From Leptospirales bacterium (GTDB taxonomy: Bacteria; Spirochaetota; Leptospiria; Leptospirales; Leptonemataceae), in NCBI GenBank assembly GCA_019694685.1, contig JAIBBM010000017.1:1-64000 (forward strand): 64,000 nt of DNA. Reading direction: 5' to 3'. Positions 51,957-57,056 of this stretch are shown here, in pieces (within the stretch, counting starts at the first letter, position 1; each line of letters begins with the position of its first letter). Below the pieces are notes generated by a model that was not told where the DNA came from, searched no databases, and was given only the letters and a program-made list of their open reading frames with translations. The translations under genes were made by a program, and so were the position numbers.

Positions 51957-53552
51957 ATGCCGGAACTTCAGGCTATGATTCCCGAGCGTCCAATGGATGT
52001 CAAACTCGTCGATGTAACCGACGTACCTTTTGATTTGTCGATCGCGACCGCACGGACCTGCTATTCTTCCAAAGGAATCATCACCCCGGAAGACGTTTCG
52101 AGAACTCCTGAATCTCGCGCACTCAGAGATCGCATCGCGAGGTCCACTCTGCAGGCGGGGCACCTGACAACGCGCCAGCATGTGCACTTTGTCTTTGCCA
52201 TAGACAACGCCAGTCGGCACCTTGTGTGGAGCTTCCTGCATTCGCATCCGTTTTACAATTCAGAACAGGTCAGCCAGCGTTACGTGGAAGTGAAGCCGGA
52301 TCGTTTTTACGTGCCACTTTCCCTGAGACAGCCCGGTAGAGAAAGGCATGCGTCCTTTTATATGGATGCGGTTCAGTACGCAGTGGGGATTTACCAGGAA
52401 CTACTTCGAGAACTCGATGTTCCGGCTGCGGCTGAGTTTTACAAGATCTTTCCGGCGCGCAAATCCAGAGCAGAAGTCTGGCAGAAGACTGTTCACAAAA
52501 AGTCCATGGAAGCGGCGCGCTATATTCTGCCCACTGCGATGCACACGTACTTCTATCATACCATCAACGGATTGACTCTGCATCGCTACAGCAGGTTGTG
52601 CGAAGCTTGCGATGTTCCAGAAGAAGCGCGCAATCTCGTGGAGTCCATGGTCCGCGCTGCGCGCGAAATTGACCCGTTATTCGCCGCTGAGATCCCCGAC
52701 TCCGTTCCGCTGGAAAGCACTCCGGAATATCAGTTTTTTAAATCATACTACGGGGAAGAATCTGCGCCTGTTTCTTCTCAGTTCATTCGTGAGTTTGATG
52801 AATCACTTGGAAAGAGAACTTCTAAGCTGGTGTCCTATGATCCAGGTGCCGTTTCTGTTCTAGCTTCTTCCGTTCGCGCCGTGCTCGGCGCAACCAGGGA
52901 AATGCTGTCTGATGAATCTGCAGTGGATCTTGTATTGAGTCCTGCGAAGAATTCGCATCTCGCCAGTGCACTCAATGAAACTACTCTTTCTCGCATCACT
53001 CGAGCCTTGCAGAATGTGCACTACACTTTTGCAAAGAAGATCTCCCACACCGCAGATTCGCAGGACCAGCGTCATCGTATGGTGCCCGGTTCTCGTCCAG
53101 TTCTCATGAAGCATTTCACAGGGAAGCCAGACTTTGTTTCGCCTGCTCTGATTTCCTCTCATTCTGCGTCTCGCGAGAAATACGAGGAAGCAATGAGTGT
53201 CTACTTCGAAAAGATCGAGCGATTCGTAGATGCTGGCGGCACAGAAGAAGAAACTGTGTATCTTCTCCCCAATGCGTTTCCAGTACGCTTTTACGAGTCA
53301 GGCGATTTGTTGAATCTGCATCACAAATGGAAGATTCGCACGTGCTACAATGCCCAGGAAGAGATCTTCCAGGCTTCCGTAGACGAATTGCAGCAGGCGC
53401 GCGAAGTGCATCCAGAAATCGGCAAGCACATCCACGCGCCGTGCAGAATTCGAAAAGAAGCTGGAGTAAAACCATTCTGCCCGGAAGGAGACCGCTACTG
53501 CGGTGTTCGAGTCTGGGAGCAGGATCTTTCCGAATACAAAAGAGTCATCTAG
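51957..53552 (+). CDS. thyX: Long FAD-dependent thymidylate synthase-like protein (two ThyX-type domains)
   Basis: 531 residues, about twice a single ThyX. The N-terminal half has the extended signature SRHLVWSFLHSHPFYNSEQ followed by VSQRY (about 85-108), matching the ThyX motif RHRxxSxNExSxRY with an insertion. The C-terminal half repeats the fold with RHRMVPGSRP near 372-381. ThyX makes dTMP from dUMP with FAD and folate instead of ThyA. Long ThyX-like proteins of this build occur in spirochaetes. It converges on the peroxidase gene with a 4-base overlap. Start 51957 is chosen over 51906, which reaches into fabH. Confidence 0.82.
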   Translation: MPELQAMIPERPMDVKLVDVTDVPFDLSIATARTCYSSKGIITPEDVSRTPESRALRDRIARSTLQAGHLTTRQHVHFVFAIDNASRHLVWSFLHSHPFYNSEQVSQRYVEVKPDRFYVPLSLRQPGRERHASFYMDAVQYAVGIYQELLRELDVPAAAEFYKIFPARKSRAEVWQKTVHKKSMEAARYILPTAMHTYFYHTINGLTLHRYSRLCEACDVPEEARNLVESMVRAAREIDPLFAAEIPDSVPLESTPEYQFFKSYYGEESAPVSSQFIREFDESLGKRTSKLVSYDPGAVSVLASSVRAVLGATREMLSDESAVDLVLSPAKNSHLASALNETTLSRITRALQNVHYTFAKKISHTADSQDQRHRMVPGSRPVLMKHFTGKPDFVSPALISSHSASREKYEEAMSVYFEKIERFVDAGGTEEETVYLLPNAFPVRFYESGDLLNLHHKWKIRTCYNAQEEIFQASVDELQQAREVHPEIGKHIHAPCRIRKEAGVKPFCPEGDRYCGVRVWEQDLSEYKRVI

Positions 53553-54928
53553 TTTCCATCCGGGGAAAGGTTTCGCGCAGAAGGGTCTGTCAGACTTTTT
53601 AAGAATGCCTCTATCTGCGCCTGCTCGGTTGCGTTGAGTCCAAGCGGACGTACCACTCTTGGATCTCGCGCATTCAGACGAGCCTGTATGTGGGATGCAT
53701 TCGTATCCACTGTGGCCGCATAATCTGCTCTCAGTCCCGCTCCATTGTAGTTTCGCAGACCAGTCGCAGTGTCGCTGTAGTGCGCAATCACCGCGGCAAG
53801 GGTCGTGTATGCTCCAGCATGAGTGTAAGGAGCCGTGAGCTCTACGTTTCGAAGAGCCGGTGTGCGAAAGTGGTAGTTGTCATTTGCAGATCCCGAAATC
53901 AAGAATCTACCCTGATCATCTCCACCGGAAGCACCCGGGCCAAGCTGAGGTGCTGCGATTCCGTGAAAGTTCGCGTCAGACAGAAGCGGTCCGCGATGGC
54001 ATCCACCGCATCCTGCTCGGCCAAAGAATAGAAGCCCTCCTGCTTTCGCATCCGCACTGAGAGCATTTGGATTTCCTCTCAGGAATTCATCCAGGGGCGA
54101 GTGGACGGCGGCGTAGCTTGCCGTTTCGAATGCAGCGATGGCTCTCGCCGCATGGCCAAAGTTTAGATCATCATACGCAACACCGGGGTAGGCTGCACTG
54201 AACAAGGAACGATAGGCGGCCATTCCGCCTGTTGTCCCGTTGTTTGTTCCCACAAGGCGTGCCATGAGGGCCGCCCAGACCGCTTGATTGTCAGCGGCAG
54301 CTCTGATTTCATTTCCAACAGCTCCTCGCATTTCTACGTCCGATGCTACAGGAAACATTGCCTGAGCAGCCAGAGCAGATGTGAGCTGAGAGGCGACGTC
54401 TGCTCTAGCTGGAGTGATGCCGTTTAACGTTGATTCGGGAGTGGTCAGAGCTCCTGTTGCGTTGTCACGGCTCACTCTGCCGTCCCAGAACATTCGCGTA
54501 TTGCCAGCCCCCAGATTGAAGAGAGGCGGGGCATTTCGCGCAACCATGGATCCAGATGAAACGACGCGAAGTTGGTTTTCGCCTGTTCCGCCTGCACCAA
54601 TGGAAGTAGAGAGTGCGTCTCCAGTAAAACCAGCCGGGCTGTGACATGTGGAGCACGATATGTTTCTATCTCCGGACAGTTCTTTGTCAAAGAAGAGACT
54701 GCGCCCGAGCGCAACGAGAGCAGGATCCTGGGCGGGCGGAGCACTGAGTGCGGTGACTCCGGCGTTATTCAACGCTCCGAGAAGCTGTGCATCGCTTGCG
54801 CCTCCGAGAAGCAGCGGAGCAAGCGCTCCTGCATCTGTTGAGCTATCCTGCTGCTTGCAGCTTTCTGCAACGCAGAACAATAGTAAGAGTGCCAGTGCTC
54901 TCGTGCTTTTTCCAATGTGATTCCGCAT
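53549..54928 (-). CDS. MauG/cytochrome c peroxidase-type diheme lipoprotein
   Basis: 459 residues. A signal peptide ends in VAESC (Cys24), so a lipoprotein, with a Gly/Ala linker. Two heme c motifs are seen: CSTCH (near 110) and CGGCH (near 310), spaced as in bacterial CcP/MauG. Between them is WDGRVSRDNATG. It reduces H2O2 in the periplasm using c-type electron donors, or oxidises a protein partner if MauG-like. GTGGAGG stands 6 bases before ATG 54928, deciding the start; the frame to 55081 has no signal-like start. Confidence 0.9.
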   Translation of the reverse strand: MRNHIGKSTRALALLLLFCVAESCKQQDSSTDAGALAPLLLGGASDAQLLGALNNAGVTALSAPPAQDPALVALGRSLFFDKELSGDRNISCSTCHSPAGFTGDALSTSIGAGGTGENQLRVVSSGSMVARNAPPLFNLGAGNTRMFWDGRVSRDNATGALTTPESTLNGITPARADVASQLTSALAAQAMFPVASDVEMRGAVGNEIRAAADNQAVWAALMARLVGTNNGTTGGMAAYRSLFSAAYPGVAYDDLNFGHAARAIAAFETASYAAVHSPLDEFLRGNPNALSADAKAGGLLFFGRAGCGGCHRGPLLSDANFHGIAAPQLGPGASGGDDQGRFLISGSANDNYHFRTPALRNVELTAPYTHAGAYTTLAAVIAHYSDTATGLRNYNGAGLRADYAATVDTNASHIQARLNARDPRVVRPLGLNATEQAQIEAFLKSLTDPSARNLSPDGN

Positions 54929-55102: not shown

Positions 55103-55131
55103 TTGACGTTGCAGATTGATGGTTCTAGAAT
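55103..55131 (+). promoter_or_regulatory. Consensus sigma70-type promoter of the TRL cassette
   Basis: TTGACG (55103-55108), 17 bases, TAGAAT (55126-55131). The ATG starts 8 bases after the -10 end (55139), so transcription would begin at or next to the start codon. No Shine-Dalgarno. It is the best promoter match in the window. Confidence 0.75.
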
Positions 55132-55138
55132 CGACGTT

Positions 55139-55465
55139 ATGCGCTATTCTAGAATTCTACCACTTGCATTCGCCCTTGGTCTTGTACTCACCCATGGTAG
55201 CGGATGCGTGACACCAGGTGGCGCCGGTGGACTGATCTTGAACTACTATGACGGTCCGTTTCTAGTAACTGGAAACAATGTAGGAACGAAGAGGGGAGAG
55301 GGAACCATTCAATGTTTTCTTGGTCTTGCCTGTTTCGGAGATGGTGGTATCTCGAACATTGCTCGTCGGGCACAGATTCAGAAAATCTCCACCGTAGATT
55401 ACGAATACATTAGCGTTATTTCCTTTCTCTATACATCCACTACGATCATAGTCACGGGTGAATGA
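55139..55465 (+). CDS. TRL-like family lipoprotein
   Basis: 108 residues. The signal peptide ends in HGSGC (Cys23). The mature part fits the TRL family (named from a tRNA-locus gene): GGLILNYYDGPFLVTGNNVGTKRGEG, CFLGLACFGDGGISNIARRAQIQKISTVDYEY and the end TTIIVTGE. The family's function is unknown. ATG 55139 overlaps no other gene, and a strong promoter lies directly before it, so the message is probably leaderless. Its stop overlaps the ATG of the next lipoprotein. Confidence 0.8.
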   Translation: MRYSRILPLAFALGLVLTHGSGCVTPGGAGGLILNYYDGPFLVTGNNVGTKRGEGTIQCFLGLACFGDGGISNIARRAQIQKISTVDYEYISVISFLYTSTTIIVTGE

Positions 55466-56169
55466 TGCCTCGTTTTTTCAGTTTGATCCTGCGCTGTCTC
55501 TTCCCGGCGTATGGATTTCTTGTCCTTTCGTTTGTTTCTTTCCCGAGTTGCAGCACGGTGCTTCTTCCGCCGTTCAATGATGCCCCCTTTGTCGGAGGTC
55601 GACAATCGGGCGCCACACCTTACAGCACCCGGGCTCGATCCATGGCTTCGGGCGGAATGGAGTCTGCCTATCTCGCTCTCTCTTCTCTGTTCAGCACCAG
55701 TTATACACCCGCCCGTGGATGTCTGTTCAATAGTTTTACAATTCCATTGATCGTTACAGAAGTCCCTCTCGGTGACATGCAGTTTGATTACGTTACCTAC
55801 TGCATGTTCGGGGTCTGTGCTGGAAGTGCAAAGGCCGCCTGGCGTGAGATTTCAGCGCGGCGCGTAGTCGCGATTCATTCGATCGACGTGGAGAGTATGG
55901 ATGCAGGCGGTTTCTCTTTGATGAAAGTGCGAGTGTCCGGGTGGAGCGAGAGTGCTTATCGGGCTGCCTTTCCCCAGAAAGCTGAGAGCGAAATGGGGGC
56001 GGCAGCTGAGGGGTACAACGAAACAGTCGAATTGTTGGACAATACTGTCTTTCGCAACGTCAAGACTGTCATAGGTGATGAAGCAGTCGAGATCCAAACA
56101 CGTCGCGGAGAAAAGATGTATTTCGGAAAGACTGAAATTCTGCGCATTCTCAACGAGAATAAACAATGA
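55462..56169 (+). CDS. Hypothetical lipoprotein, second gene of the TRL cassette
   Basis: 235 residues. The signal peptide is long and ends FPSC (Cys30), a possible lipobox. The middle is unrecognised (YLALSSLFSTSY, ARGCLFNSFTIPLIVTEVPLGDMQFDYVTYC). The last 45 residues contain a beta-hairpin word, VIGDEAVEIQTRRGEKMYFGKTEILRI, that resembles the N-terminal motif of the next gene. ATG 55462 overlaps the TRL stop (ATGA), and its own stop overlaps the next ATG. The three proteins are likely co-expressed in the envelope. Confidence 0.65.
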   Translation: MMPRFFSLILRCLFPAYGFLVLSFVSFPSCSTVLLPPFNDAPFVGGRQSGATPYSTRARSMASGGMESAYLALSSLFSTSYTPARGCLFNSFTIPLIVTEVPLGDMQFDYVTYCMFGVCAGSAKAAWREISARRVVAIHSIDVESMDAGGFSLMKVRVSGWSESAYRAAFPQKAESEMGAAAEGYNETVELLDNTVFRNVKTVIGDEAVEIQTRRGEKMYFGKTEILRILNENKQ

Positions 56170-57056
56170 AGTATCTTGTTTTCGCCGTGTGGGTCATTTC
56201 TTGCGTGCGAGATGTTAGCGCAGAAGATACGATTCGCCTCAAAACCGGCGAGCAACTCACCGGAACGATCAAATCGGACAATGGCACGACGATTATACTT
56301 TCCACAATTGATGGAGATCGAACGATCGAGAGAACTGACATTTACAGAATTGAGTTCCTGGATGCGAGACGCCTCCGGTCGAGCGGAATGATATTTGTAG
56401 AAACCCTGTCTGGACCGGGCGTGGTTGTTTCTCCGGCTTTCGAAAACCTGGGAAATCCAGCCATTGGCAATTTATCGTTCCTGAACTACTTTTCGCCAAA
56501 CCCTGCGCGCGCGCAGATCGCCATGCTTGAGATCCTGGACACGAACAAACCGCGGGCTTACTCGCGCAATGTTGTGTTCAGGACTGGCTACGGACTGGGA
56601 GAGACAATAACGGTCGGGCTCATGGTTACGAGCACCTGGGTTAGAATCAACGGATACAGGGGAGCCATTGACGATCCCCTGCTGAGATCATACATCAATT
56701 TCCCTCTCAATCCTTTTGTAAGAGTAGACGCACCCAATCTGCTTGATTACGCCTTTTTAGTTCGTAACAAACAAACGTTTCGCGCCAGCGGCACTGGCGG
56801 AGTCGATTTGAAGGTCCATACTGCGAAAGGTCCGTTTACACCCTATCTTGATATCGGCCTGTTTAACAGAGGCGGCAGCGCATCGCTGGGTGCGCGCTAC
56901 GTTTTTGGAGCGGGCGTGTATTTCACCGCCGAAGGCTTCACGGAAGAAATTGCCACGTTTGTTCCCGCCCGGGACTTGCGCGGCAAAAGCTCGCGATACA
57001 TTGACAACAATGGGTGCCGGTTCGGTGTTGGGCTCGTGGTTGATTCCGGCCGTTAG
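56166..57056 (+). CDS. Exported beta-rich protein, third gene of the TRL cassette
   Basis: 296 residues. Signal peptidase I-like signal ends at SA|ED (cleavage after residue 19). Residues 20-66 carry DTIRLKTGEQLTGTI and IILSTIDGDRTIERTDIYRI, a beta-meander motif often seen at the N-terminus of leptospiral outer-membrane proteins. The later part (about 110-296) has alternating aromatic/polar strands (GLMVTSTWVRINGYRG, FLVRNKQTFRAS, GARYVFGAGVYFTAEGF) consistent with an outer-membrane barrel. Start ATG 56166. It converges on the kinase gene with an 18-base gap. Confidence 0.65.
   Translation: MKYLVFAVWVISCVRDVSAEDTIRLKTGEQLTGTIKSDNGTTIILSTIDGDRTIERTDIYRIEFLDARRLRSSGMIFVETLSGPGVVVSPAFENLGNPAIGNLSFLNYFSPNPARAQIAMLEILDTNKPRAYSRNVVFRTGYGLGETITVGLMVTSTWVRINGYRGAIDDPLLRSYINFPLNPFVRVDAPNLLDYAFLVRNKQTFRASGTGGVDLKVHTAKGPFTPYLDIGLFNRGGSASLGARYVFGAGVYFTAEGFTEEIATFVPARDLRGKSSRYIDNNGCRFGVGLVVDSGR

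Follow-up and report, generated by a model that had tools for sequence, protein, structure and literature searches.

A three-gene Leptospirales locus encoding a TRL lipoprotein, a diverged TRL relative and predicted Hfq/Sm-like domains beside a probable beta-barrel

Three described proteins offer counterparts to the locus reported here. According to the respective papers, the Leptospira adhesin Lsa14 binds laminin and plasminogen (PMC7662565), RcsF is a lipoprotein with a short hydrophilic stretch threaded through barrels (PMC4942254), and the nose domain of Kustd1711 has an Hfq fold with opposite surface charge (PMC11791136). The locus lies in a 64,000-nucleotide stretch of a Leptospirales bacterium contig, the whole of which we refer to as the window, and consists of three genes, P1, P2 and P3. 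We are highly confident of its anatomy on the domain level: a TRL protein, a TRL protein with an Sm-like tail, and an Sm-like domain followed by a probable barrel.

Layout and sequence signals of the trio

The sequence and its list of open reading frames place all three genes on the plus strand in an operon-like run. P1 (55139..55465, 108 aa) is a TRL lipoprotein, P2 (55462..56169, 235 aa) is a probable lipoprotein with a diverged TRL domain and an Sm-like tail, and P3 (56166..57056, 296 aa) is an exported protein. As an earlier note on this DNA had stated, the genes overlap by ATGA at both junctions: at 55462..55465 the P1 stop TGA (55463-55465) overlaps the P2 ATG at 55462, and at 56166..56169 the P2 stop (56167-56169) overlaps the P3 ATG at 56166. 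The latter 4-nt overlap is also kept in genome G001. The export signals ascribed to all three products are likewise present, with P1 and P2 having a hydrophobic N-terminus followed by a lipobox cysteine (C23 and C30 respectively) that is invariant among the homologues aligned, and P3 having a signal-peptide-like N-terminus. By the rules for lipobox motifs those of P1 and P2 in the window (GSGC and FPSC) are weak; the G001 orthologues carry LGAC and ATAC.

The trio had also been credited with the best sigma70-like promoter in the window, which is not supported. The putative promoter TTGACG-17-TAGAAT (55103..55131, plus strand) is a consensus match only, at 10 of 12, and ties with a second 10-of-12 site; sites of this quality are no commoner than chance predicts (7 observed versus 8.2 expected in shuffles). 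Its use would set the transcript start at approximately the P1 ATG, giving a leaderless message. The G001 orthologue has TTGACA at the same 36-nt distance from its ATG, and a -10 element is absent there. A strong promoter for the trio is therefore not supported. An alternative in-frame ATG of P1, at 55097, lies upstream of the putative promoter. Divergent from the trio is a gene of the di-haem cytochrome c peroxidase/MauG type (53549-54928, minus strand; PF03150, 2e-32).

Domains of the P1, P2 and P3 proteins

P1 passes the gathering score of PF13146 (TRL) with 66.1 bits against a cut-off of 25 (E 3.4e-18), the domain occupying residues 31-108 (55229..55462, plus strand). Its best named NCBIfam match is Lsa14 (NF047877; 2e-10), at 40.9 bits and so under the curated equivalog cut-off of 120 bits. 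The earlier statement that TRL has no known function is thus nearly right, except that the nearest NCBIfam label, below cut-off, is that of an adhesin. A structural model of P1 from 37 alignment rows has a pLDDT of 75 overall and about 90 in the core (residues 50-108), with residues 22-40 of low confidence. The best Foldseek E value for this model is 0.29. YbjQ/DUF74 (1vr4, Z 4.3, rmsd 4.2, 67 aligned; 3qkb, Z 4.0, rmsd 4.1, 71 aligned) and RcsF (2l8y, Z 3.9, rmsd 4.5, 73 aligned; 6t1w, Z 3.8, rmsd 4.2, 68 aligned) lead the VIA rows, all with Z under 5, and families absent from these rows are not thereby excluded as fold relatives. The modelled TRL fold accordingly resembles YbjQ/RcsF only weakly. 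A relationship at the sequence level is not supported, as hhalign comparison of the TRL profile with K-12 RcsF (3%) and YbjQ (0.3%) gives no significant relation, and a sequence search for solved relatives yielded none that is convincing.

A Pfam comparison of P2 yields nothing at E 1 or better, and the PF13146 gathering score is not reached. A profile of 11 TRLs nonetheless aligns with a profile of six P2-type proteins over P2 residues 85-161 (55714..55944, plus strand) at an hhalign probability of 97.5. Among eight TRL groups the P1 family is nearest to the P2 family (97.9, E 6e-13), followed by groups d (94.1), a (91.8) and f (89.5), with b, c, e and the set of singles all under 25. An ORF set drawn from 80 TRL regions plus 13 named loci has 2,725 entries, of which 2,278 are distinct; searched against it, a P2 HMM recovers P1-type TRLs first (1e-10 to 1e-12) and then genes for TRLs with a tail (1e-7 to 1e-10). 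Since these hhalign and HMM matches are not accompanied by a Pfam match, we call P2 a second TRL in the sense of a diverged relative. Both proteins have a C-x4/5-C pair and both lack the cysteine that precedes the final TIV in most TRLs; together with the proximity of the two families, these features fit an origin of P1 and P2 as tandem-duplicated TRL lipoproteins.

The earlier note had seen a similar hairpin motif in the P2 C-terminus and the P3 N-terminus, and the resemblance proves stronger than claimed: P2-type tails and P3-type N-termini align with an hhalign probability of 96.5 (E 9e-10), and at the profile level the two domains are related. The shared fold that the note suggested is supported as Hfq/Sm-like, by a model for P3 and by the profile match for the P2 tail (residues 186-235; 56017..56166, plus strand). 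In an AlphaFold2 model of P3 from six alignment rows, residues 20-66 (56223..56363, plus strand) form five strands at a pLDDT of about 95, the arrangement of the Sm/Hfq five-stranded small barrel. A fold search with this segment finds Hfq, the best 50 Foldseek rows being Hfq chains with a probability of 1.00, E values of 0.009 to 0.02 and rmsd mostly 1.0-1.7 over about 45 residues. In VIA the top Z of 7.9 belongs to the Kustd1711 nose domain, and many Hfq chains score 7.0-7.7. The predicted structure of P3 20-66 is therefore Hfq/Sm-like, and P3 has no match to Pfam Hfq. Weak matches below the curated cut-offs link the first 64 residues of P3 to the Leptospira families LB_137 (1.4e-5) and Lepto_7_Nterm (6.6e-5), and the P2 tail to Lepto_7_Nterm (0.019). 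The same domain occurs in other exported proteins, those of the Lepto_7_Nterm, LB_137 and LIC_13076 families. RNA binding by the P3 domain is unlikely because of this exported context. Lipoproteins near TRL genes that we labelled by eye as PEGA-like (L058 8885-9412 and L063 8308-8769) have the same Sm-like tail. The spirochaete protein FlgV, formerly annotated as Hfq, was considered and dropped, its own paper denying Hfq homology (PMC11607428).

The remainder of P3, residues 67-296 (56364..57053, plus strand), is probably an outer-membrane beta-barrel, a reading drawn from remote homology. Outside residues 20-66 the model has a pLDDT under 50, and no Pfam family reaches E 1 with P3, OMP_b-brl (PF13505) included; two relatives match PF13505 below cut-off (L145, 0.0016; L163, 0.00037). 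A first scan of genome contigs with P3 found no relative. The P3 profile searches used the ORF set described above, which comprises TRL surroundings only and so ranks neighbours without being a genome-wide test. Excluding P3 itself and its orthologue, the best matches of the barrel HMM are fourth genes of TRL triplets (see below), in G005 (3e-5; this gene is present as L145 too) and in contig C47 of the same genome as the trio (1e-4). Once these are added, it reaches the fourth genes of L126 (1e-17) and L101 (0.001) and, ranked between them, an ORF lying upstream of the TRL doublet L132 (2e-4). The Sm HMM of P3 matches fourth genes or their contig-edge counterparts in L140, L120, L133/L155 and L130/L154 (5e-7 to 0.001). 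Interspersed with these is a single ORF of another kind, on the minus strand close to the trio of G001 (L074 9094-10017, 5e-4). Searched genome-wide, the barrel profile gives 22 matches, spread over 16 of 30 genomes. Five lie beside TRL genes, four of these matches having gone into the model, and the other 17 lie elsewhere; a TRL profile run on the 17 regions around the latter has no hit passing E 0.01 (best 0.033). We therefore assign the barrel to a wider family and discard it as a TRL-specific partner. Counts of amphipathic strands were also set aside as barrel evidence, as they do not discriminate (z 1.5 for P3 versus 2.6 for a cytochrome peroxidase control); one row, from a minus-strand gene of L134 that is not its fourth gene, is left out of this comparison.

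Distribution of the trio and of TRL triplets

Searches of 61 genomes (that of the trio and 60 relatives) give near-full-length P3 matches only in G000 and G001, and P2 matches in G000, G001 and G006, with a further match over 50 residues in G029. The complete trio is present in two of the 30 genomes covered for the order, and conservation across Leptospirales, proposed earlier as a check, does not extend to the three genes together. The P1-P2 pair does stay together, at six loci in three genomes (one in G000, two in G001 and three in G006), corresponding to six of the seven P1-clade loci; P3 is present at two of the seven. The second gene after the seventh P1-clade member (L118, G020) was considered as a P2 gene and is not confirmed by the P2 HMM search.

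TRL domains themselves are widespread in the order. At E 0.001 or better PF13146 has 145 hits, 144 of them over cut-off, in 26 of its 30 genomes, and none in 14 control genomes or, in a 15-genome search, in the five genomes of the class outside the order. L157 was left out of these counts, being judged by eye to be a chance match in another protein family. Linking hits within 1 kb on one strand gives 80 clusters, with 43 singles, nine doublets (two with gaps of about 800 nt) and 28 triplets, and none larger. For 81 of the 84 triplet TRLs the best match in another genome is at the same position in its triplet (28, 28 and 25 of 28), and all 56 inner junctions allow a start codon between -14 and +24 nt relative to the stop of the gene before, counting the nearest possible start. 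A tree of 149 TRL domains resolves two triplet types, which we label a-b-c (19) and d-e-f (9); the third gene has a P2-like Sm tail in seven of the nine d-e-f triplets. Types a, b and c of L147 match Lsa14 at 4.7e-25, 5.4e-16 and 1.9e-7, all below cut-off.

Where a triplet has a close downstream gene, that gene is exported-like in 12 of 14 cases versus 108 of 298 background genes (p 3e-4), using a crude hydrophobicity rule and longest-ORF gene calls, with the L083 barrel gene left out for clashing calls. These fourth genes are of several unrelated kinds with no single fixed partner, and some share the barrel-like or Sm domain of P3. In sequence the trio resembles the order-wide triplet operons and looks like an offshoot of that cassette class. 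Our literature search, whose coverage lay mostly outside subscription journals, found no description of TRL cassettes or of this Sm domain in spirochaetes.

There are several other TRL contexts. An ORF on contig C47 (L066 4233-5180) probably represents a TRL in a signalling protein, with the domain at the C-terminus of a SpoIIE-type phosphatase with TPR (PF07228 3.5e-14, PF14559, PF13146 2.3e-18). In 10 genomes an Lnb_N-type protein, called by blastp to the L147 gene (itself matching PF13387 at 1.5e-12), is another recurrent partner, encoded within 1.3 kb after single or paired TRL genes (L067, L072, L076, L082, L097, L098, L100, L123, L128, L131 and L141). A FliH gene (PF02108) lies near TRL clusters in several genomes (L071, L075, L068, L082, L088 and L093). 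A contig filed under a Woesearchaeota MAG (L152) has a spirochaete-type TRL triplet beside an integrase-like ORF and is probably misbinned, and a single TRL (L156 3860-4339) is on a contig titled Lentisphaerae.

A possible lipoprotein/barrel complex and its relation to known systems

Sm folds often pair edge to edge, and an interaction of P2 and P3 through their Sm-like domains is plausible for that reason. We propose that the trio is a TRL envelope cassette of two tandem-duplicated TRL lipoproteins, in which P2 would have gained an exported Hfq-fold tail and P3 would have the same domain before a probable outer-membrane barrel. Translational coupling would yield the three proteins in step, P1 and P2 would be lipid-anchored at the outer membrane, and pairing of the P2 and P3 Sm domains in the periplasm would connect the TRL lipoproteins with the barrel of P3. 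The resulting complex could act in sensing, envelope structure or surface binding. This is our best guess, and we put its chances slightly short of even. Counting against it are the scarcity of the trio, the location of most barrel-family members away from TRL, the low pLDDT of the P3 barrel part, the lack of Pfam matches for P3 and of a Pfam TRL match for P2, and the unrelated kinds of fourth gene.

It is also possible, if somewhat unlikely, that the three envelope proteins are co-transcribed but form no joint complex: P1 and P2 would form one unit, P3 would be a separate outer-membrane protein inserted downstream in one genus, and the Sm domain would be a common spirochaete module spreading alone. 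The presence of P3 at only two of seven P1-clade loci, the Sm domain in the three exported families and the PEGA-like lipoproteins, and the barrels remote from TRL genes all accord with this, whereas two triplet classes and the trio each join TRL with a neighbouring Sm domain or barrel, and G001 has kept the P2/P3 overlap. A surface adhesin cassette, in which Lsa14-like TRL lipoproteins would bind host or matrix proteins while P3 serves as anchor or export aid, seems very improbable: the data analysed hold no sign of surface exposure or of a host, and one TRL of the same genome belongs to a SpoIIE/TPR protein, even though, among named families, P1 and the L147 types match Lsa14 best (all below cut-off) and Lsa14 is reported to bind laminin and plasminogen (PMC7662565).

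Equally improbable is an RcsF-like sensor, with the P1 linker threading or docking on the P3 barrel and the Sm domains relaying to the periplasm. YbjQ/DUF74 and RcsF do lead the VIA rows for P1, RcsF is threaded through barrels by its hydrophilic stretch (PMC4942254), and residues 22-40 of P1 are of low confidence, but Z remains under 5, Foldseek E is 0.29 at best, and hhalign finds no significant relation. We retain it as a bold reading because RcsF is described in that paper as a lipoprotein working inside a barrel. In a bolder version of the proposed complex, which we think improbable, exported Hfq-fold domains would be envelope protein couplers locking TRL lipoproteins with an RcsF-like fold onto a barrel in the outer membrane as a sensor or scaffold, the order-wide triplets being the general form and the trio a two-lipoprotein variant.

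TRL is a Pfam family without assigned function, and its strictly ordered triplets throughout a spirochaete order, repeatedly adjoining exported Hfq-fold domains, give it testable partners. Such a domain beside TRL would mean that the Sm fold is also employed beyond the cytoplasm, and the proposed complex, if real, would give relatives of Leptospira an outer-membrane system not described in the literature searched.

With PF13146 and Lsa14 the locus shares small lipoproteins with a TRL domain, P1 being a full PF13146 match. It differs in that P1 has C-x5-C in place of the cysteine that is otherwise conserved ahead of the last TIV, in that P2 has diverged beyond Pfam, and in its tandem arrangement, TRL cassettes of this kind not being found in the literature searched. 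RcsF with its outer-membrane barrels offers the idea of a lipoprotein plus a barrel and a weak fold resemblance to TRL, but no significant sequence relation, and no signalling partner genes are seen in the trio. The likeness to the Hfq/Sm small barrel is the five-stranded Sm fold modelled in P3 20-66, whereas the P3 domain is exported, part of a larger envelope protein and without a Pfam Hfq match. The N-terminal domain of LA_0442/LA_0875 and the LB_137 family (NCBIfam) appear to represent the same exported Sm-like N-terminal domain, although the scores of P3 and P2 are under the curated cut-offs. Finally, the Kustd1711 nose domain (PDB 7zs0; Z 7.9, rmsd 3.2, 59 aligned in VIA) is likewise an Hfq-fold domain that is exported and belongs to a protein not concerned with RNA; its host is a dihaem cytochrome c, unlike P3, and it shows by precedent that an Sm domain can be exported and serve outside RNA biology.
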